Shown here piece by piece: positions 21,649-60,882 of a stretch of DNA of 64,000 bases; position 1 is the stretch's first letter, and every line of letters starts with the position of its first letter. A program made the position numbers and the translations under genes. The stretch is from Pseudofabraea citricarpa (lineage: Eukaryota; Ascomycota; Leotiomycetes; Helotiales; Dermateaceae). Under the pieces are notes generated by a model, which saw only the letters and a program-made list of their open reading frames with translations, searched no databases and was not told the origin of the DNA. Where the stretch lies: assembly GCA_029641185.1 (NCBI GenBank), contig JAPWGK010000003.1, forward strand, positions 1,116,001 to 1,180,000. Reading direction: 5' to 3'.

Positions 21649-22295
21649 GGCCCCGGGTCGAGCGATGGCTTTGTATAGATAGTATGACTACCAACTGTTT
21701 TAAATAGCGATGACAAGAGCTCAAATAGCTCTATAATTCCATGAATGAAAATAGATCTGTTCTAATTTGTATTTGCCTATCTTGTTTGACTTGTATACAA
21801 GGAAATAAATGTACAAGGAAATAAACGAATGATGTATCTATTTCCGAGTAGACCTGACTTCATTTCCCTGCTGTGCAAGTCATAAGCAAATATAGCTGGA
21901 CATAGACTACTTGATTAGAGTAAGTAGGAAATGCGGGACGTGTATACCTCCGCGACTAGTTAGAAATTTATCCATCTAGAAGAGAACGAGCACATGTGAA
22001 TGTATCGAAAGCCGCTGACACATTCCGCATCGATTGTGCGGTCGGTCCGCAAGCCTGGTTCGAAATCGGCAGGCTTCAATGACGTAGCATCTGCAGCTAA
22101 CAATCATGAAGATCCATTCATAAACTTTAAAAATTGGTAAAACACGTGAATTCGCCCTTACCTCTTGACGACCCCATTTTTGATGCATATCATTTCCCAA
22201 AACAAATCTCTCTTTGACTTTTATTTCATATTTGATCAAAGTCAATTCCGCCTTCTGTTCTTCATATTTGTTTGGCCTTTTGCGATCAGCCAATC
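21649..22295. other. Intergenic between bromodomain and aminotransferase genes
   Basis: 0.65 kb holding the 3' flank of the bromodomain gene and the promoter of the aminotransferase. A CACGTG core appears near 22,143 (aaacacgtgaattc). A 105-codon open frame on the minus strand covers the promoter but shows no protein-like features. Confidence 0.4.
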
Positions 22296-23933
22296 ATGTC
22301 GACGGTCGATTCGCATCCAGAACCATTGTTCTCCTTCCCCTCCATCCCTCCTCGTCTCGCTGATATCAGTACTGCCATCACATCAACCGTCTCAGGAGCT
22401 ACGAGGGAGAGTGTGAGATCTCCCAGGTCTCCAGCGTCTCCTTTTTTCGATCCGTTGTCTGCTGCGCTCTCGACTGCACAAGCTAAATATACGCTCTCGA
22501 ACTCGAAATCGCTAGCTGCCCATAATGAAGCGTGTCAAGACTTTCCCGGTGGGAATACGAGAACAGTATTACACTCAAGCCCATTTCCTATGACCTTCAG
22601 TAAGTTTTCTCTGCGCTGCACGGAAACAGGAACAAGACAAGAAGAACAATCACATTGATGAAACTTTAAAAACAAAGCCTCCGGAAAGGGATGTGAAGTC
22701 ACGAGTCTAGATGGCGAGACATATATCGATTTCCTGGGTGAATACACGGCGGGTCTCTTTGGACACTCCAACCCTACCATAGCAGAAGCCGTTCGAGAAG
22801 CACTGCAGCGCGGTTGGAATCTCGGCGGCCCAAACACATACGAACGCACACTGGCGCGGAAAGTATGCAAACGCTTCTCAGCGAGCGGCATCGAGCAAGT
22901 ACGCTTCACAAACTCCGGAACAGAGAGCAACACGATGGCTCTCGCCGCTGCCGTAGCATATACCGGCCGGAAGAAGATTCTCGTCTTCAAGAAGGGATAT
23001 CATGGAGGCACGTTATCGTTCCCGGAAAACCTGCATCCGGAAATGCATACCAACCTGCCACATGATTTTGTGCTGGCGCCGTATAACGATATCGACGGCA
23101 CGCGCAAAGTCATTGAGGCTCTGCCGCCGAAGTCCCTGGCTGCCGTTCTTGTTGAGCTCGTCCAAGGGAGCGGCGGTGCAATTCCAGGAACTCCTGAGTT
23201 TCTGAGATTTCTGGACAAGGTAGCGCATGATCTCGGTGCCGTGTTTGTCGTCGATGAGGTAATGACTTCACGGCTCTCGTACCATGGACTCTCGGCAGAT
23301 CTGGGCCTGAGTCCGGATCTCGTGACGTTGGGGAAATGGGTCGGAGGTGGTATGACCTTTGGAGCGTTTGGAGGGCGCAAGAACATTATGAGCCTGTTTG
23401 ATCCTCGTGCTGCGGTGCTTGCACATTCAGGCACCTTCAACAATAACGTCATCACCATGGCTGCTGGATGTGCCGGGATGGACATATATACCGAAGAAGA
23501 GATCAAGCGATTAAACGCCCTGGGAGAAGATCTCAAAGCGTCCATCTCTGCCATTCTTAACAAGTACTCGATCCAATCTAAGCCCGAGCCAGCAGGAAAA
23601 CCGTGCCCAGAGAAAAACGAGCTCGAATCGCCCTTTACGGGAATCGAATCCCCTAAGACTGACCATCTAGTCACGAGCGTCGAGTCACTCTCGATCAGCA
23701 GCCCGGGCACCATGTGGGTTTCTGGCCGTGGTAGCATGCTGAATATCAATTTCGCGGGTCAGAGCGAAGGGAGTCTGCGAGCACTGTTCTGGCATCATAT
23801 GTTAGAGGCTGGCTTCTACCTCGCTCAGAGAGGATTCATTGCCTTGAATATCGAGATCCAGAAGGATCATATAGAGAGGTTCGTAGCGGCAGTTGAGAAA
23901 TTCGTGTCGCGGTATCGACAGGCTTTGAACTGA
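22296..23933 (+). CDS. Class-III PLP aminotransferase, glutamate-1-semialdehyde aminomutase-like
   Basis: Two exons (22296-22599, 22678-23933) encode 519 residues; the splice restores PMTFTSGKGCEVTSLDGETY. The fold-type I landmarks are present: FTNSGTESNTMALAAA (phosphate cup), YHGGT, VFVVDEVMTSR (the Asp contacting the pyridine N) and LVTLGKWVGGGMTFGAFGG, where K is the PLP Schiff-base lysine. An internal Ser/Pro/Glu-rich insert (about residues 420-455) sits between the large domain and the C-terminal domain. Fungi make aminolevulinate from glycine, so this is unlikely to be a haem-pathway enzyme. It belongs to a group of GSA-like aminotransferases of uncertain substrate, often in specialised metabolism. 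The intron acceptor (aaacaaag) lacks a pyrimidine tract but is the only one that keeps frame. Confidence 0.85.
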
Positions 23934-24693
23934 GCTATGAAGGAAATTTTTAAATTGGGCTAGATGCATAATTTATCGGAATTGAAAATCTTGTATATAA
24001 CGTTGGGTATGGAATTGGATACCTCATGTGTGATTTACATGTTGTCCTCCGTGTGGAGTAAGCGAGCAAAACATCAGAACATCGCTAATACCGAATAAAT
24101 GTATAATTTCCAACTCTACGCCCAGCACTTCGGAGGCACGGGCATGCAAGCCCTTGCTTGTTGCACGTCTGAATTCCTCACTCTGAAAATCCAATATCCA
24201 GTTTCCAGATCCATCCATACACACGTTCTAGCCCACTGCGCCCATTCCCCTCCGATTTAGCTTCTCCATCGCACTAATCAAAGTCCGGCTCCAATAGCTT
24301 CTCTCCTTCGACGGGTATTTTGTTGCACGTCTAGAAATACCTTTATGTACTTATATTTGCAGCTGTTATACAAGAGCCATTGACTAATATAGAGAGGGCT
24401 TGAGGTTTGTTGCATATCGACATTCTCGAGAAACAATCAACCCAACTGCGTTCCGAACGCTTGCGGGGTTTTGTTGCGTGTCTACGTTCTTCGGAAGATA
24501 TTCTGCTTATTGGCCGTTATGCTTAGTTGGTATCTATCTAGCAGTAGCACCTGCCCTAGCCAAGCAGGTGCGGTTTCTGTTGCACATCTGGATTCCTACG
24601 TCGTATCGCGGCGCAGTTATAGCTCACCAGTAAATGAGCTTTGTTGTATGTCGAAATTTGAGAATATGTTAACTGGGTTTATGTCAAGTCCAC

Positions 24694-25145
24694 AGTAACG
24701 TCGGGATCCCTAGCGTGTTCACTATACTCGCTTGGATGGCTATATTAATATATAGAATAGGTATATATAAGAAAAGTAAAATAATAGAATTCTATTAAGA
24801 GAAGTTATACTCGTACGTAGTTATATAATCTTTATTTTCAAATAACTTAAATTTTATTAATCTTAACTTTAGTTACTTATTACGTATTATTAGAAAATCA
24901 CGCGTATATGTTATATATATATTTTAAATAAAAAATAAACTTTCTAAGACTATTTTTATAATATTAGTATTTCTTACTATTTAGATATTATACAAGTTAT
25001 ATTTATCTATAGTTTACTTATATAGTAGAAATATTATAAACTATAGCTAATTATAAAGCGAGATTACTTATAATATCACTTAAAAGACTATTAGGGAGCG
25101 TATGCTAAGCTAAACCGAGCCACCGCTAGGGGTCCCGGTGTTACT
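24694..25145. mobile_element. 452-bp inverted-repeat element (MITE-like) inside the array
   Basis: The left end AGTAACGTCGGGATCCCTAG and the right end, read on the minus strand as AGTAACACCGGGACCCCTAG, match at 17 of 20 positions, and all three differences are transitions. The interior (about 24,740-25,090) is extremely AT-rich and free of open frames, consistent with RIP. No target duplication is obvious. Removing it would bring the flanking motif copies from 595 to about 143 bp apart, within the array's range, so it looks like a later insertion. Confidence 0.65.
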
Positions 25146-25930
25146 ATATATACGGTTGGGCTCTCCAAATATCATCTATTGTGGGACAGGATGCGCGTTC
25201 CACTTCGCCTTCGTAGGTCTATGCAAGCGAGTATTTTGTTGCGTGTCGATATTTAAGAATGCACTGTGCGCTGTTACTTAGCTGCTATTTTGTCCATGCT
25301 AGTAGCCAGCTTGTGTATGGTTCTACCAGTTTAGGGGTTTGTTGCATGTCGATGTTTTAGAAATATGTTGTCTACTGCTCTTTAGTAGCTGTGTAGCTCG
25401 CTCGACTCGTGTTATGTTAGTTAGGTATGTAGCCATGTTTGGACTTCACCGTTTGCGTATGTGTTCACTTACGTATATCCGTGGCTAATGCTAGCTTTTG
25501 TTGCACATCGGAGGTTGTACGTAACATCTCTGTGAAGTAGAGTATATATAATTTAGCTTGCTCGTGGTGCTTGTTAGCTTGCTTTTGTTGCATGTCTGAG
25601 TGTAACACAGGGTGTCTGTACAGAGTGCGAGGTAAAATCTGGGCTACTAGAATCTATGTATATAGATGGTCTGTTGCACGTCTGAGTTTCCTTCGCCTGT
25701 ATTTAGGATCAGATCTGATTCGACCAGACTTCAGCTTAGGAGGAAGTGAGATTTTGTTGCACATCTGAATTCAAAATATCGCACATCGGATATTTCCAGC
25801 CTTTCTCTCGTGACCTTAGTTCGCAGCTAAAGTAGACTTTGTTGCACATCTGAGTCCGAAGGACGTCCGTCCCTCACGGTCATTCGTTCGTTCTCGCTTA
25901 TCAGGCTCGTGATCAGCGGCGGCTGGTTTT

Positions 25931-26076
25931 GTTGCACGTCTGCACAAGAGTTCGAATTCGTTCAACGCATCGAAACTGATTTTGAGCACCAGCGAACTTT
26001 TTTGTTGCACGTCTGCACAAGAGTTCGAATTCGTTCAACGCATCGTAACTGATTTTGAGCACCAGCGAACTTTTTT
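25931..26076 (+). repeat. Two tandem 73-bp units inside the array
   Basis: 25931-26003 and 26004-26076 are identical except for one base (cgAaac versus cgTaac). Each unit is one motif copy plus its complete spacer. It is a recent duplication of a single repeat-spacer unit. Confidence 0.9.
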
Positions 26077-26264
26077 GTTGCACATCTGAAAAACTGCTGC
26101 TCAACTCCTCGAGGTACTTCAACTCATTTTTTTGCGCTGAGGTAATTGGGTTGGGTTGGGTTTTGTTGCACGTCTGACTTCGAGAGGACCCTCCAAATCT
26201 CTGGATATTCTGAGCCAACGACTCACGTGCTAGCTAACTGCCTAAGTTCTTGTTGCATATCGGA

Positions 26265-26949: not shown

Positions 26950-28206
26950 TTAAAAGGCCGATCCGGTGGCTGTGGGAACCATCTTCTCGGTGAACAACGT
27001 CTTCGCCTTGACCATGACGACCATGAAGCTCGGTAGTTTCATGGTGCCCATATGGCCTGTGCCTGACTTCTTGCCGACGGGGACGGCAAGCATGTCTACA
27101 GTAGATAAGTTAGCAATATGCAAGAAGCAAGACTTCGGATTTACGTACCCTTCTCATCGACCTTGAATGCGACGGGGGACTTGTTCTGGAGACCCAAGAT
27201 GATGTTCTTGACAACATGAGGACTTTGCTTCTCGACATTTACGTATTGTGGGCGTTGCACAGCTGAGATATCTCCAACGGCCCAAACATCTTCAGTACCC
27301 TTTACTCGCAGGTACTGGTCAACAACCACGAAACCGTTCTGGTTGAGGAGGTGTCCAGGTACATAAGAAGAGTTGGGTACAAGACCCATAGTAGGAATGT
27401 ACAAATCAGTGGTCACTTTGCTGCCATCAGATAGCGTGAGTTCTGTACGTCCATCTGGCATGGTTGCTGATCCTGATACTTTGGTGCTGGTCTTGATCTC
27501 AACATTAAGAGTTTTGAGTTGTTTTGTTGCCGTCTTCGATACGCTCGCAGGTGTTCCTTCAAGAATTTGAGCACCGCTAGCAATCTGATATGAATTATTA
27601 GCAAATGGATAGTTTGGGAGACGCCGTTTAGTGGCTAATTATTGTGGGTTGTTGGCAAAAGACTTTACATACCAAAGTAATCTTTTTTGTCTTTCCATAC
27701 TCGAATCCCAATTCGCCTGAAACTTCCACTCCGGTAGCACCTCCACCGACTACGGTTATCGACTTTGCAGCCTTGACCTTGTCTGAAAATTGGTGAAGTG
27801 CGTCGCGGGTAGCTTCAAAAGAGCCAACCCCCTTGAAAGGTACATCCCCCTTTGACTTAGAACCGGTCGCGAGAACAAGGATATCGTAATCGAGAGTTAA
27901 GGCGCCACTGGCGCTAGCGACTTCAACCTTTTTGGAGTTGACATTAAGGCTTTCGGCAGTTCCCAGAACAAATTCAAATCGGCCGGCGGGGTACTGTTTG
28001 AATCCAGGCGCAATTGGGTGGAAGATCTTCTCGTCTTTCAATTGCCCTGGCACGATTGCTCTTGTAGCTGCGATGTTCCAGTAGATGTGCGTACTTGGCG
28101 AAACGAGAATGACCTTCACGTCACCCGTCTTTGCTGTCTGCTTCAACAGCCTATGTGCCGTTCCAAGGCCAGCAAATGATCCACCAAGGATGACGACGGT
28201 CTTCAT
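26950..28206 (-). CDS. FSP1/AIFM2-like FAD-dependent NAD(P)H oxidoreductase
   Basis: Three exons (28206-27673, 27584-27149, 27095-26950) encode 371 residues, the normal size for AIF-like/FSP1 enzymes. The N-terminus MKTVVILGGSFAGLGTAHRL is the FAD-binding Rossmann motif. A second dinucleotide motif, KSITVVGGGATGVEVSGELG, binds NAD(P)H. The conserved ATGSKSKGD follows the central strand and the late FAD motif is TEDVWAVGDIS. The C-terminal MGTMKLPSFMVVMVKAKTLF is typical of fungal members. It is expected to oxidise NAD(P)H and reduce quinones at membranes. The start at 28206 places the FAD motif at the extreme N-terminus, as in the family; the frame is open further upstream but without protein-like content. 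Confidence 0.88.
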
Positions 28207-28689
28207 TTTTGCGGTTGTTATATTGGAAGATAGATAAAGTTGAAGAGTTTGATGAAGTGGTGAGAGAAAGTTGTAGTGAGTACAAAATCGAAATGGTATG
28301 ATTTCCCTGCGGGAATCGGGACGATATAAAAGCTCGCAACCTGTGCCACGTTCGGACTTTGCAGCTGTTAAAAATCTCCGATGGGAGCACCAATTTGAAA
28401 GCATTTTATCGAATTTCTCAGCATATTCAGTGCTGTCGTACCAAATTTCCATTCATTGGTGGTTTCGTATCTCGTAATAATGCTTGAACCATACTCGAAC
28501 AGTCCGGGAAGCGAGCCGAAAGAAAGTGTCGGCTCGAATGACCAAGCGTACCGCCCACTTCGAGCCAATCAGAGACTGCTCCGCGCTTCATCAAGTTCAC
28601 AGACCCACTAAGCAACCCAAATGCTAATGCCAAATGTGACAAAGCTCTAGCGGGATATTAGCATCCAACAGAAATTCACTATATCTAAT

Positions 28690-36720: not shown

Positions 36721-39700
36721 TTACGCATCCCAGCTATCGGGATTTTCATCTCTCTCCAAGTCCTTGGTCATATATTCCTTCGGACCTTCATCAATTTCCA
36801 CCGGGTTATCAATGCTGTTGCCAGCCTTTCCATCCATACGAGCCATGAACTTCCACAACTCTCCATCTTGTAGTAGAAAGTCGGCATCTGCTCTAATGCC
36901 AGACTCGTCATATTCGCCTAAAACCGAGCCCTTCGCAGCAGACACGATCCGATCCGTTACCGTCCTCTCGGTATGATCTCTCCAGATCTTTTTAGTAAGA
37001 TCAGCACAGGTGGTACAAAGCAGCAGACCACACCCATATACTCGATTCTCAGGCGTAGCCATGTCGCCGGACGACGTGAATTTCTGCTCCGCGCAGCACG
37101 CAAAGAAAGCCGGGGCCGGGCAGATGGAGCACCACTTCGTCTCGTTCGCCAGCTTCCCTTTCTCGACATCGCCGTCGGCAAACGCAGCCAGGGACTCGTA
37201 GAGCGCCTTCTCGTTGAATGTCTTGGCGTCCAGACCTGATATCGCCTGGATATGCTCGTGCACGCACGTCATGATCCGACACCGGATGAACGTACATCTG
37301 ACGCACATGTTGGATGGCAGCTTGCCACTTTCTGAGTGCCCGTTTTCAATCTCCTCGCACAGGAATTGTTTCTTCTCGTCCATGTACTCAGCTAGCGTCA
37401 CGGTCGTTTCGCCGTACCCGCACAGTCCGAAGAATGGACTCACACACCAGTCGCATTGCTCCTTTTCTTTTGGAGAAGAGGAGGAAGAAGAAGAGGAAGG
37501 GGAAGAAGGAGAAGAAGGACCCGTCCCCTTCGGTTTCCAGTTAAAGGTCAACGGGTAACAGAAACTCGTCGTCACGGTCCGGAGCGGTCTCCCGCTGGCG
37601 GTTCTCCCTGCTGGCAAGAGCGAGGCCGAAGAAGAATTCCTGGCTGCTTTCCTCGCCAGTGCCTGCTGCTTCTTGGTCGTTTTCCCACCGCGATACAAGC
37701 CTGTAGAGCCGCCGAATCCATCAGGAGGTGCGGTAGAAGCATCGAGGGACTCTTGAGCTGAGAGCTTCCTGCGTTTTCGCCGCTCTGCTGCCATGGCAGC
37801 CGACCGCTCGCGGCGTTCTCGATCTTTGCGCTTCAGTTGCTGGCTGTAGTGCTCCATGCGTGGCTTGTAGGTGGATTTCCTCTTGGCTTTCTCGGGAGCT
37901 GCTGCTGTTACTTCGGCTTCTGCTTCTACCTCTACTTCCACCTCTACCTCCGCTTCTTTTTCTTTTGGTTTTGATTTTTCTCCTCCCATTTCTCTTTCTT
38001 CGCCTTCTTGCGAATCCGTCATTTCGTCATCGGCTGAAAATCCACTCTTCTGTGATCCTGATCCGATGTTCTTGGAGCCAGCAACAGACGAGGGAGAAAG
38101 AGAAGGAGAAGAAACACTCTGGATTACTTCTTGTTTTCCCTTTTCTGTTTCTTTTGCCTCTTCTCTTTCTTTTTCTTTCTCTTTCTCCTTCTTCTTCCCC
38201 TTTCCCGTTCCCTTCCGCTTCCGCCTCCGCTTCGGGCTGTCATCCAAGTCGAAATCCAGATCCGGGTCATACGTGCCGCTGTTATCGTGATCCTGCCACG
38301 CACTACTCAGACCGATGGTGTGTTTCTGCATTCGCGGCCGCATCTTCGAGTTGATTATCACCCCGAGATCTCGGATGCTGGGCTTTTCTTTTCGTCCCAC
38401 CCCCTGGAGGTGAGACTCTTGCGCCTTTCGCTTCTTCTCCATAGCGGCGAAGAATTGGTCGGCTGCTGAGGGCTCGGATGATCGTTCGGGCGAGGGAGAG
38501 CGAGAAGGAGAAGGAGAGAATGGCTCTTCATTTAGGGGACTGGTAGGCGGAGTGGGTGATGGGAAGGGATCAGAAACGGTCGAGGCTGTGACGCCCGAAG
38601 CGTTGAGTCCGAAATCTTCATCCTGATCTCCTCCTTCGGCCTCGCCGTCGTTCTCGACAGGAGGGTTTGAATCGACGAACAACGAGGGACTTTCTTGGCC
38701 AGAAGGTTTCTCGAAGACAGACGCCTGCTCTTCGACGCTTGGAAGCGTACTGGGCTTCCCGAAGATAGATGGAAAGGAAGAAGAAGCACTGGTGCTGAGG
38801 TCTGGCACAGGTGGATCGATAGTCGTAGCTTGGTCCGGGAGAGCTGCGTCGTTGTTAAAAGAAGAAGAGACACATCTCTTGGCAAAGATAGACGCGAAGG
38901 ACGAGAGAGACTGCTGCTCTTCCTGCTCTCCTGCTTCTGCTTCTCGACCTTCGCCGCCTTGTGTCGCGCCTTGCTCGTGCGCTGTGTCATTTTCCTCTGG
39001 TGTCGCTGCTGCGGCGAAGTTCCAGTTCTGATGGATTGTGCTTAGACCCTGAATGTCGGTCTTTGCCTCGATGGACGAATCGTCTTGCTGTGGATTTTGG
39101 CCTCCTTCTTGCCTTGGATGGGTGTTTGCTGCTTCGATGCGAGGTGTTGGGGAATCGGCTTTGAGAGTGATAGATTGTGTAAGTGGATTCTGTTCCGGTG
39201 GAGTTGCTTGACCTTGTTGGAAAGTTGCTTCTGCTGGCTCTGAAATGTTGTGTGTTAGAGGTCTGGCTTTAGAAGCGACGGACGGTGTGACTGGATTCTG
39301 TTCTGGTGGAATTCCTTGACCTTGTGGGAAGGGTGTTTCGACGTCAGGTGTTAGGGAATCGGCTTTGGAAGTAATAGGTGGTGTGATTAGATTTTGTTCT
39401 GGTGCAGTTTCTTGACCTTTTTCGAAAAATGCTTCGACGTCAGATGTTGGGGAATTGGCTTTGGAAGTGATAAATGGTGTGATTGGATTTTGTTCTTGTG
39501 GAATTCCTGGACCTTGTTGAAAAGTTGCTTCTGCTAGCTCTGATGTGTCTTGTGTTGGAGGTCCGGCTTCGGAAGTGATAGGTGGTGTGACTGGATTTTG
39601 TTCTGGTGGACTTTCTTGGCCTTGTTGGAAAGTTGCTTCTACTAGCTCTGATATGTTTTGTGTTGGAGCTGGCAAGTTTCCACTTGGAATTTGAGATGTC

Positions 39701-39723
39701 TCTTCCGGTTGTTGTCTATCCAT
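36721..39723 (-). CDS. Large protein with C-terminal Cys-rich zinc-binding domain
   Basis: Single-exon protein of 1,000 residues. Residues ~29-195 are five to six degenerate tandem repeats of ~37 residues (EATFQQGQ...PEQNPVTPPITS). A long acidic/Ser/Pro disordered region follows, with basic KRRRKRKGTGKGKKKEKEKE (nuclear signals) and Glu-Val/Glu-Ala runs. The C-terminal ~280 residues carry paired cysteines: CDWCVSPFFGLCGYG, CVRCTFIRCRIMTCVHEH, WCSICPAPAFFACC and GCGLLLCTTC. This pattern resembles the fungal version of the zf-4CXXC_R1 domain (family name by resemblance, uncertain). Likely nuclear. The start at 39723 is an ATG shortly before the repeats. Confidence 0.8.
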   Translation of the reverse strand: MDRQQPEETSQIPSGNLPAPTQNISELVEATFQQGQESPPEQNPVTPPITSEAGPPTQDTSELAEATFQQGPGIPQEQNPITPFITSKANSPTSDVEAFFEKGQETAPEQNLITPPITSKADSLTPDVETPFPQGQGIPPEQNPVTPSVASKARPLTHNISEPAEATFQQGQATPPEQNPLTQSITLKADSPTPRIEAANTHPRQEGGQNPQQDDSSIEAKTDIQGLSTIHQNWNFAAAATPEENDTAHEQGATQGGEGREAEAGEQEEQQSLSSFASIFAKRCVSSSFNNDAALPDQATTIDPPVPDLSTSASSSFPSIFGKPSTLPSVEEQASVFEKPSGQESPSLFVDSNPPVENDGEAEGGDQDEDFGLNASGVTASTVSDPFPSPTPPTSPLNEEPFSPSPSRSPSPERSSEPSAADQFFAAMEKKRKAQESHLQGVGRKEKPSIRDLGVIINSKMRPRMQKHTIGLSSAWQDHDNSGTYDPDLDFDLDDSPKRRRKRKGTGKGKKKEKEKEKEREEAKETEKGKQEVIQSVSSPSLSPSSVAGSKNIGSGSQKSGFSADDEMTDSQEGEEREMGGEKSKPKEKEAEVEVEVEVEAEAEVTAAAPEKAKRKSTYKPRMEHYSQQLKRKDRERRERSAAMAAERRKRRKLSAQESLDASTAPPDGFGGSTGLYRGGKTTKKQQALARKAARNSSSASLLPAGRTASGRPLRTVTTSFCYPLTFNWKPKGTGPSSPSSPSSSSSSSSPKEKEQCDWCVSPFFGLCGYGETTVTLAEYMDEKKQFLCEEIENGHSESGKLPSNMCVRCTFIRCRIMTCVHEHIQAISGLDAKTFNEKALYESLAAFADGDVEKGKLANETKWCSICPAPAFFACCAEQKFTSSGDMATPENRVYGCGLLLCTTCADLTKKIWRDHTERTVTDRIVSAAKGSVLGEYDESGIRADADFLLQDGELWKFMARMDGKAGNSIDNPVEIDEGPKEYMTKDLERDENPDSWDA

Positions 39724-41585
39724 CTTTGCGAGAGCTTAGGATGCTCGAGACATAGGAATAGACTGAGGCTGGGTGTAGGGATGAATGGATGCTATGATTA
39801 TTTCTTAGTACTTACTTGAATTAAGTTGGACAGATATATGCCAATGTATAAAATGATAGATGAAGTATGAGGAAGGTAAGGTGAAGGGTATGAGAAGAGA
39901 TAGCATGAGGGTGCATCTTCCAATGTCCTCAAGACATGAAGCGAGGAGGACATGGAGAACTCAAAGCCAATTGGCTTAAGATCAACTATCGCGAAGAAGG
40001 ATGAGAAGCGGGGTGGGAAAGGAGAAGATAGAAAGAAAAGATGCATGTAGAAGGCAGATCTCCATGTCTTCTGCTTGAAAGCAGAAGAAGAAGTAAAGAC
40101 CAAGGTGAGCTGGGAGGAGGGAAGAAAGCGAAGTCGAGAGGATTAGCCGAACTCAGCTCGCCTTGTCCAGCCGAGCAGAACGGGACTTTATGCTTTCGAT
40201 AATCTGCAACGTACCTGGATTTTCTGCTTGTAATTTTCAATTGGATAATGGATTGGGTCTCTTGAGAGACACCTGCGGCTTTTCAATGACGATGTTAATT
40301 GAGTTGTTGTGGTTGTGGGTGGGTGTGGTTGAAGATGGTTGGATGTTGGTGTTGAAGTGGTGGTGGAGAGTTCAGGTCGGTCGAGACGAGAAGAGTGGAG
40401 TTGAGACTTCGCCCCAAGACACACCCTAGAAACAGTAGGAAATACTGGCAAGTATAGTGATAGAGTGCTGGAGTTATGGAGTAGAAGGGCTTGAGGAAAG
40501 TTCAAGGGTTGTCTGAGACTTTAAGGAGGAAAAGCTGAGCAACGAATATCGAGCTTCGGGGGCGAAGAGGGAAATAGAGTATGTGATGCCACCAGCTCAG
40601 GGATCGAAGCTGATAATAAACTCCAGATCGCTCGAAGTCCGAATTCGTAGGCTGCTGGAGAAGAAGATTCGATTGGAGATTATTGATTGAAGAAAAACGA
40701 AAGGGGATGGACTGAGTAAAAGTTGGGAGGTTACAAACTCAGCTGCAGAGATTTAGAATACCGCATCAACTACTACGAAGAGGATTCTGAGATAGAATCC
40801 TTAGATAATTCCAAAGCAGCATTGCTATTCCTATCGAGGCTCAGAACCTTGAACATCCGCATAGCGATTTTACGCCATCGAGACTGCTCGCGCTATACAA
40901 CGAGCGGTCGATGACGGCCTGGGAAATATTGCGAATCTCTATGGCAGTTTTTTTTTTAAACGTTTTACAATGACAATTACTTTGCCATCAAAAGTTCGTA
41001 TTCAAGAAATCTTCCTGATTAAATGCTTTTTCGTAACTTGTGTGTCCCACCAGTACAGTTGAGTGACGATGAGATGAATTGCCCAGAATTAAACATTCAA
41101 ACTTTATTCTCTCTTACCCCCAGCGCAGCTTTATAGCACATAGTTTATTCCAAGACCAATCAGCAGATACTATTCGTCTGGCATCTTTGGAGAATTCTGC
41201 CTGCATCCCGCCATGTGTCCCTGATGTTGCTGGGCATCATAACCATCGCGAGTATCATGAAATATTATAATAATAAAAATTTCGGTGATTCAAGTGACAA
41301 CCACTTCTCCATAAATATCCTAAATTCAATTTCAAGAAAAGTTGTAATTAGGTCGATAAAGGAGGCTGATGGAGGGAGGTTGGTTGGTCTCGGTGTCACG
41401 AGCCTTACTGCTGCTTTGAAGCTAGTGCCAGAACGCGGCCCGAGCTCCACTGACTAAGCGCACTAAGCCAATCGAAAATTTCTTTATATTTGGCTTGCGC
41501 TCCTCTGCCCTCTCATCTTCCTCAACCAACACTCCATAACATGTGTGGCTCTTGAACAACAACAATTCCTCTCCCATGTGGAGGG
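39724..41585. other. Intergenic, 1.86 kb, no gene seen
   Basis: The upstream region of the zinc-binding gene is purine-rich on the plus strand (pyrimidine-rich leader on the minus strand), with a GGTGGTTGTGG-type stretch near 40,300. The rest up to the histidine phosphatase has only short open frames with no recognisable features. Confidence 0.5.
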
Positions 41586-59981: not shown

Positions 59982-60882
59982 CTAATTCTTCCTGTTCAAC
60001 AACGCTCTCTTAGCGCCTTCCAAAGCACCGAAAATGGCTCCAAGCTGCGAGTTGGCATCAACTCCCGGAGGGAGGGCTTTTGCCGTTCCATTTCCCTTAG
60101 CAGCACCACCTTCTGCAGTTGCGGTTCCGTTGCCCTTCGAAGCACCTTCGCCTTTGGCTTCACCACCGGTAGCTGGCTCAGTAGCATTTCCCTTCGTAGC
60201 TCCTTCGCCTTTGGCTTCACCACCGGTAGCTGGCTCGGTAGCATTTCCCTTCGAAGCACCTTCGCCTTTAGCACCCTCACCCTTAGCAGCACCACCGGTA
60301 GCTGGCTCCGTAGCATTTCCCTTGGTGGCACCCTCGCCCTTTGCGCCTTCGCCCTTAGCAGCACCTCCCTCGGCGGGTTCAGTGGCATTTCCCTTGGCTG
60401 AACCTTCACCCTTCGTGGCACCCTCGCCCTTGGTAGCACCGCCCTCTGCGGGTGCGGTGGTGTTCTTCTTGGCCGATGAACCACTAGCACCCTGAGCAGC
60501 GTTTAAAAGAGCTGCGAGACCAGCGGTGCCGGAACCCGTCGAGTTGCCAGCAGCCTTTGGCTGCTTTGCTGGGGCATTGGCATCAGGGGTGATGGTGATC
60601 CCGCCGGAGCCACCCACGTTGGTCGTCTGACCTTGTGGGTTCACGGTGATTCCTGTCTCGCCATCGACTTTGGTGGAACCATCGTCTTCGACTGTTTGAG
60701 ACAAAAACGTTAGAATGATGGGATGAAATAACAGTGGAGATGTTGGGTCTTGGGATTTGGGAGTTAGCTGTTCACGTACCAATAATTCCATTCTCGCCCT
60801 CGAGAATGGTCTTGGGGAGGGCCCAGGCTTGGCTGCCTACGGCCAAGAGAGAGGCAACCGCCAGGACTGCTTGGTATCTCAT
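59982..60882 (-). CDS. Secreted Gly/Ala/Lys-rich repeat protein
   Basis: Two exons (60882-60780, 60691-59982) encode 270 residues. Residues 1-21 are a signal peptide (MRYQAVLAVASLLAVGSQAWA). The mature N-terminus (ILEGENGIIGVEDDGSTKVD and following) is non-repetitive and ends in a Thr/Pro-rich ITITPDANAPAKQP. The middle consists of degenerate ~18-residue tandem repeats of the type KGEGATKGNATEPATGGEA; most units contain an N-glycosylation sequon (NAT or NGT). The C-terminus returns to a unique helical segment (LGAIFGALEGAKRALLNRKN). The expected location is the cell wall or matrix. I do not recognise the family; repeat number is likely to vary between strains. Confidence 0.8.

Follow-up and report, generated by a model that had tools for sequence, protein, structure and literature searches.

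Tandem repeats with a common short box are already known in animals. Different human minisatellites reportedly share a short "core", as described by Jeffreys, and the fungal arrays reported here likewise comprise different minisatellites with a short core in common; unlike the human ones, their cores also occur where tandem structure is hardly visible. By analogy, the closest known kind is the divergent satellites of Meloidogyne with a CENP-B-box-like motif. In these satellites, the 17-bp "Box 1" is kept in otherwise divergent repeats (32–64% identity), lies at monomer junctions, has been proposed as a promoter of array rearrangement and shares 10–12 of 17 positions, and 4–5 of the nine essential ones, with the human CENP-B box (PMC3694981, PMC9673304). 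The fungal core is similar in being a motif of about 17 bp kept in otherwise divergent tandem repeats and in its degree of CENP-B likeness. It differs in its fungal host, in its arrays, which are short (between 2 and about 34 cores where read) and scattered through the genome, in spacers that can be unrelated, in the core sequence itself and in the presence of at least two core subtypes.

Two further systems resemble the fungal arrays in part. The mammalian CENP-B box of alpha satellite, with its nine essential bases, is a short motif that occurs once per tandem unit, as in the fungus (PMC4904201); the consensus forms of the fungal core agree with that box at 11–13 of 17 positions, but the nine essential bases are not all present and each contig can carry fungal arrays at many places. 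RTS1/Rtf1 and Ter1/Sap1 of fission yeast are polar replication fork barriers composed of direct repeats of sites for Myb/HTH-type proteins (PMC5368702, PMC6053445). The fungal arrays appear alike in their head-to-tail geometry, whereas RTS1 and Ter1 are special loci and the fungal arrays occupy many dispersed places, and the likeness seen is one of layout. In the open literature, a scope outside which most subscription papers fall, no report was recognised of fungal arrays of this kind, short and dispersed, sharing one core and forming a continuum from minisatellites to nearly bare cores.

The window, i.e., the whole 64-kb stretch of DNA that was analysed, contains 18 head-to-tail copies of a core on the + strand between positions 24156 and 26264 (Table 1). 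When up to three mismatches were allowed, TTTTGTTGCAYRTCKGA matched the window 19 times; 18 of these matches fell within this interval, all on the + strand; in 100 shuffles of the window the mean was 1.33 matches and none of the shuffles reached 19. A weight matrix derived from 184 cores of other loci (L031–L054, with the window excluded) recovered the same 18 cores in the scanned 64 kb with scores of 11.7–29.5 bits, and the single further match, at position 22178, scored 8.1. Ten shuffles yielded 0.6 matches per shuffle at a score of at least 8, 0.3 at 10 or more and none at 12 or more, and since chance matches occur at 10 or more, the sixth copy lies near the edge of chance. Above the shuffle level, the window holds these 18 cores and no others. 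The initial annotation, made from the letters of the window, had described about 19 copies of a 17-bp motif, in most cases 62–106 bp apart; the clustered, one-stranded array was confirmed with a corrected count of 18, the length was about right apart from a weak tail, and 14 of the 17 spacings measured 64–106 bp, with the remaining three being 162, 159 and 595 bp.

The extent of the core was read from the information content of 147 cores from 21 loci, a profile in which the search pattern had set or constrained positions 3–13. Among the free positions, 0–2 carried 0.8–1.5 bits, 14–16 carried 0.4–0.9 bits and 17–19 were weaker (0.3–0.5 bits), while elsewhere the content was at most 0.4 bits, with some outside positions at 0.3–0.4. 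The core was accordingly defined as TTTTGTTGCAYRTCKSA followed by a weak CYY tail.

Table 1. Positions in the window of the core copies, the repeats associated with them and the neighbouring genes.
Feature	Position	Strand	Evidence
Core copy 1	24156..24172	+	mismatch search and weight matrix
Core copy 2	24318..24334	+	mismatch search and weight matrix
Core copy 3	24405..24421	+	mismatch search and weight matrix
Core copy 4	24469..24485	+	mismatch search and weight matrix
Core copy 5	24575..24591	+	mismatch search and weight matrix
Core copy 6 (lowest score, 11.7)	24639..24655	+	mismatch search and weight matrix
Core copy 7	25234..25250	+	mismatch search and weight matrix
Core copy 8	25337..25353	+	mismatch search and weight matrix
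Core copy 9	25496..25512	+	mismatch search and weight matrix
Core copy 10	25583..25599	+	mismatch search and weight matrix
Core copy 11	25669..25685	+	mismatch search and weight matrix
Core copy 12	25752..25768	+	mismatch search and weight matrix
Core copy 13	25837..25853	+	mismatch search and weight matrix
Core copy 14	25927..25943	+	mismatch search and weight matrix
Core copy 15	26000..26016	+	mismatch search and weight matrix
Core copy 16	26073..26089	+	mismatch search and weight matrix
Core copy 17 (top score, 29.5)	26161..26177	+	mismatch search and weight matrix
Core copy 18	26248..26264	+	mismatch search and weight matrix
Tandem pair of 73-bp units (core and spacer)	25927..26072	+	period 73, 97% matches over 25927-26088
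Inserted dispersed repeat, about 470 bp, AT-rich, inverted ends	24682..25154	.	genome matches and ends by eye
Class-III aminotransferase gene, 3' end facing array	22662..23933	+	long ORF; PF00202, E 3.4e-47
Pyridine nucleotide-disulphide oxidoreductase gene, two ORFs, 3' end facing array	27141..28452	-	PF07992, E 1.3e-14, 1.3e-17

The DNA between the copies, which had been called unrelated, was mostly near the shuffle level, with 2% of the non-adjacent spacer pairs and 12% of the adjacent ones (2/17) exceeding the 99th shuffle percentile. The exceptions were the pair of 73-bp units, the sole recent tandem duplication in the window array, and the spacers flanking copies 7 and 8, which weakly resemble each other. 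The segment between copies 6 and 7 has relatives at five other places in the genome (two on contig C1, two on C5 and one on C41) with 74–88% identity, and its inverted ends, compared by eye, agree at 18 of 21 bp, which marks it as a dispersed repeat inserted into the array and accounts for the 595-bp gap. The element is MITE-like and has perhaps undergone mutation by RIP. When the whole window array was compared with its own genome, the best candidates scored included no match at E 0.01 except for this repeat.

The location between two gene 3' ends, proposed in the initial annotation, was borne out by the ORFs and by the PF00202 and PF07992 matches of the two flanking genes. The aminotransferase shares 85% identity with a Phlyctema vagabunda protein and 66% with a Coleophoma protein, which points to a helotialean ascomycete. 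Elsewhere in the window, two repeats of another kind were seen in coding sequence on the - strand: a minisatellite with 96/108-bp periods at 39177-39668, within a 1004-aa ORF (36721-39735), and a glycine/alanine-rich repeat with 57/72-bp periods at 60133-60460, within the ORF 59982-60836.

The genome (44.0 Mb in 43 contigs) was searched with the core, all repeat counts from this search being lower bounds. Allowing two mismatches, at least 943 matches were obtained versus 82 for the reversed control. The exact 14-mers composed of TTTTGTTGCA, a central CG, TA, TG or CA, and TC had at least 116, 106, 58 and 40 matches, respectively (at least 320 in sum), with reversed controls of 0 in all four cases; across the genome, CG and TA centres thus outnumber TG and CA ones. 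The any-centre form TTTTGTTGCANNTC was found at least 358 times (control 6), and the centre was pyrimidine-purine in 320 of these 358.

Linking the 298 listed matches (out of the 320 exact ones) at a distance of 1,500 bp resulted in 102 places, which are spread over 30 contigs with many on a single contig. A single exact copy was present at 48 places, a class that ignores inexact neighbouring copies, and two or more at 54. Among the multi-copy places in this list, 49 of 54 were one-stranded, the first core being on the + strand in 27 and on the - strand in 27, and neighbouring cores lay on the same strand in 189 cases versus 7 on opposite strands. The genome-wide motif search and count of clusters, which had been suggested as a check, thus did not reveal the random dispersal that would have spoken against an array. 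Tandem duplication alone would produce the head-to-tail polarity of the cores.

A second subtype of the core (subtype II, TTYGTTGCAYRACGGA) was present in at least 164 exact copies (control 0) in arrays of its own, and it also adjoins subtype I in L038 and L042. A pattern covering both subtypes and a trailing SAC had at least 289 genome matches with a control of 1. Subtype II arrays were observed at C2:1291820-1293868, C3:618625-621016, C8:493279-495453 and C11:266858-267722, and further ones at C12:1368290-1369981, C12:2077109-2078220 and C12:2085896-2086502; at C3:618625-621016 and C12:2077109-2078220 the copies occur in both orientations. Positions 10 and 14 of the core were associated within loci, C going with T and T with G (187 cores, 24 of 25 loci), and the Y10-K14 pairing was counted 145 times against 127.7 +/- 3.9 expected in these 187 cores. 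This association may reflect only subfamilies.

The gene context was classifiable for 19 of 21 loci. According to crude ORF calls, on which the convergent bias rests, 10 of the 19 arrays lay between convergent genes and 2 between divergent ones; other intergenic DNA was 23% convergent and 29% divergent by length, or 11 and 12 of 41 other gaps by count. A cluster of promoter elements was considered and rejected because of this position.

The sister arrays, all from this one genome, were chosen by their core from the top of the match lists in contig order, so that proportions among them are not genome proportions. Their units, as read, measured about 50–138 bp. Some are near-perfect minisatellites with units of 73–91 bp, such as L044 (91-bp steps), L050 (88–90 bp), L046 (89–90 bp) and L051 (73 bp). 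Non-adjacent spacer pairs exceeded the 99th shuffle percentile in 100% of cases in L043 and 83% in L044, and in 5% in L041 and 4% in L049, where the values for adjacent pairs were 7% and 15%. In ten loci (L034, L035, L043–L048, L050 and L054, on contigs C1, C3, C4, C6, C7, C8, C9, C12 and C34), the unit of about 90 bp or its variant contained a second box, CCGTCGCTAGACTTATTT, whose conservation roughly equalled that of the core among 31 aligned units. L031, L041, L051, L052 and L053, as read, had their own units with the core in common, and a lone second box without a core was seen in L052.

Alignments between 25 loci fell inside the arrays on both sides in 482 of 483 cases, the sole exception being a weak 51-bp match between L039 and L050, which indicates that the flanks of the arrays are unrelated. 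The array family with the second box has in its turn dispersed to sites that differ in their flanking DNA. Tandem units were present at several loci (the 54 multi-copy places), and several arrays had units of their own with only the core in common, which makes them a dispersed minisatellite family with a common core. The window array is one member of this genome-wide family, in which the core of about 17 bp is common and the rest of the unit not always; for the explanation as a whole, which includes the reading of the core given below, our confidence is evenly divided. Homology of the spacers as satellite units, which had been named as the observation that would undo the first description, was found in the sister arrays, while the window spacers mostly no longer align.

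High identity of the core in aligned units is a biased measure since the units were found and cut at the core. The least biased test started from the second-box anchor GTCGCTAGACTT (up to one mismatch) in the window and L031–L054. A core with 0–1 mismatch of 15 was located upstream of 66 of the 74 anchors and was perfect in 54 of these 66. The eight anchors without a core were found in the window outside the array (2), L036 (1), L052 (1), L045 (2), L050 (1) and L054 (1), those in the window, L036 and L052 possibly being due to chance. For the plain 90-bp unit in seven loci, the core was present at 34 of 35 anchors, whereas a box downstream that was allowed equally many free positions was present at 19 of 35, a control that is not low and in which about 7 of the 35 anchors are last units whose downstream part possibly lies outside the array. 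An initial downstream control, a fixed sequence over mixed units, gave 10 of 74 and was too harsh. In L051, many units had an AG centre or worse, and these altered cores speak against selection. The stronger argument for a kept core comes from the window, where 18 recognisable cores stand beside spacers near the shuffle level.

The core is probably bound by a protein that recognises this DNA sequence specifically, given that it is long and asymmetric, lies beside drifted spacers, occurs singly or in runs and, although found on either chromosome strand, is mostly on one strand per array. Multiple binding sites for one protein had been among the first suggestions for the array, and this one is the best supported of them, as a reading of the sequence in which the core is kept and the spacers have drifted. 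The protein would be a putative HTH/Myb or CENP-B-like protein reading a long asymmetric site, and selection would keep the sites while the spacers drift. Arrays occupied by this protein would then hinder replication forks in a polar manner, or act as boundaries, in intergenic DNA, by preference between two gene 3' ends. By analogy with fission yeast, a role as polar fork barriers is proposed only tentatively. The core is copied together with its spacer by tandem duplication, as seen in the 73-bp pair of the window and in the 73- to 91-bp runs elsewhere, and fork stalling at the sites would also cause such duplications, through which arrays form and are renewed. Stalling of forks in one direction would account for both the polarity of the arrays and the duplications.

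A somewhat unlikely alternative is that the core is recombinogenic or selfish and has no host function, being a site of breaks, nicks or stalling that duplicates its neighbours, so that only core-bearing units are re-amplified. Whole core-containing units are indeed duplicated in many arrays, different neighbouring DNA has been amplified along with the core, the 48 of 102 places with a single exact core (inexact neighbours uncounted) are possible seeds, and cores decay in L051. However, the window, L041 and L049 keep many cores despite spacers near the shuffle level, and in the absence of selection the cores of such old arrays should have decayed like the spacers.

A special case of the binding-site reading is that the core is bound by a pogo-derived HTH protein that silences chromatin or protects forks like Abp1/Cbh1 of fission yeast, which we regard as doubtful. 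Compared with the human CENP-B box (YTTCGTTGGAARCGGGA), subtype I matches at 11–12 of 17 positions in its consensus forms, subtype II reaches 13 of 17, and shuffled cores match equally well at a frequency of 0.0002–0.008; the likeness was sought post hoc, and these frequencies are uncorrected for the other motifs considered. The consensus variants thus reach or exceed the level of about 10–12 of 17 seen in CENP-B-box-like satellite motifs. Among the 18 cores of the window, 10 match at 10–12 of 17 positions, but the other 8 match at only 8–9. Of the nine essential bases (NTTCGNNNNANNCGGGN), 5–7 are present in the consensus forms and 3–6 in the window cores, and with these bases incomplete the core is not a CENP-B box. 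The likeness of the core to that box, a comparison of sequence, is suggestive.

Candidate genes for such a protein were sought by domain. PF03221, a CENP-B-type HTH family, had four matches in the genome (C11:359133, C12:2470739, C14:86699 and C14:181498), the best of them within a 428-aa ORF, and these four genes are possibly domesticated transposase genes. HTH genes of this kind occur widely in comparable fungi, which counts against the CENP-B-like reading. PF04218 had no match in the genome, which also speaks against a CENP-B-type protein, and PF03184 (DDE_1, the pogo/Fot1-type source) had none in a search that was silent in 14 control genomes as well.

It is improbable that all arrays derive from one ordinary satellite of about 90 bp and that the window array has simply decayed. 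Such a common origin would suit the unit with the second box at ten fetched loci and the coreless copy of that box in L052, but the units of the five loci with their own repeats are otherwise different, and neutral decay is not expected to spare just the core. Highly improbable is an origin as ends or subterminal repeats of DNA transposons. Subterminal transposase sites can be repeated, and inverted blocks exist at some places (C3:618625-621016), but the near-complete confinement of the alignments between the 25 loci to the arrays, apart from the weak 51-bp match, speaks against it, as does the lack of a DDE_1 match in the genome, though the control search was silent too. A core forming the boundary of a repeated element with a homologous interior was rejected on the same alignments.

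The suggestion of a structured non-coding RNA locus retains only the faintest chance: the single-strand polarity and a weak consensus fold of the 90-bp unit (27 units, z -1.75 for one strand and -2.08 for the other) are compatible with it, but this fold comprises only three base pairs, the 67 core-plus-downstream pieces (z -0.07) and the upstream pieces (-0.14) were at the level of the controls (-0.15), and no Rfam match was found within the window. CRISPR-like acquisition of spacers, for which short repeats and mostly unique spacers of similar length might speak, has a negligible probability: the repeats vary, start-to-start spacings range over 64–162 bp plus the 595-bp gap, the array has no match in its own genome apart from the inserted repeat, spacers are repeated in sister arrays and the same core occurs elsewhere in ordinary minisatellites with near-identical 73- to 91-bp units, which reduces the comparison made in the initial annotation to an analogy of layout.

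Returning to the core as a protein-binding site, the arrays raise a wider prospect that we consider speculative and rather unlikely in its entirety. About 100 dispersed polar arrays and single CENP-B-box-like sites would form a network, its two or more subtypes being read by paralogous HTH proteins, and would provide programmed barriers to forks, or boundaries in chromatin, that make and renew their own repeats by fork stalling; it would thus show, in a present-day genome, how a common box can be gained by satellites that are unrelated. As a warning for the reading of other genomes, the decay of a minisatellite around a kept site can produce layouts that look "CRISPR-like". In animal satellites, a short box sometimes outlives the rest of the repeat, and it may be kept for a function or may itself drive amplification. 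The compact 44-Mb genome of this fungus seems to hold all the stages together, from cores that stand alone through recent tandem runs to old arrays of which mostly only the core remains, and, provided that it grows in culture, these two possibilities could be put to the test in it.
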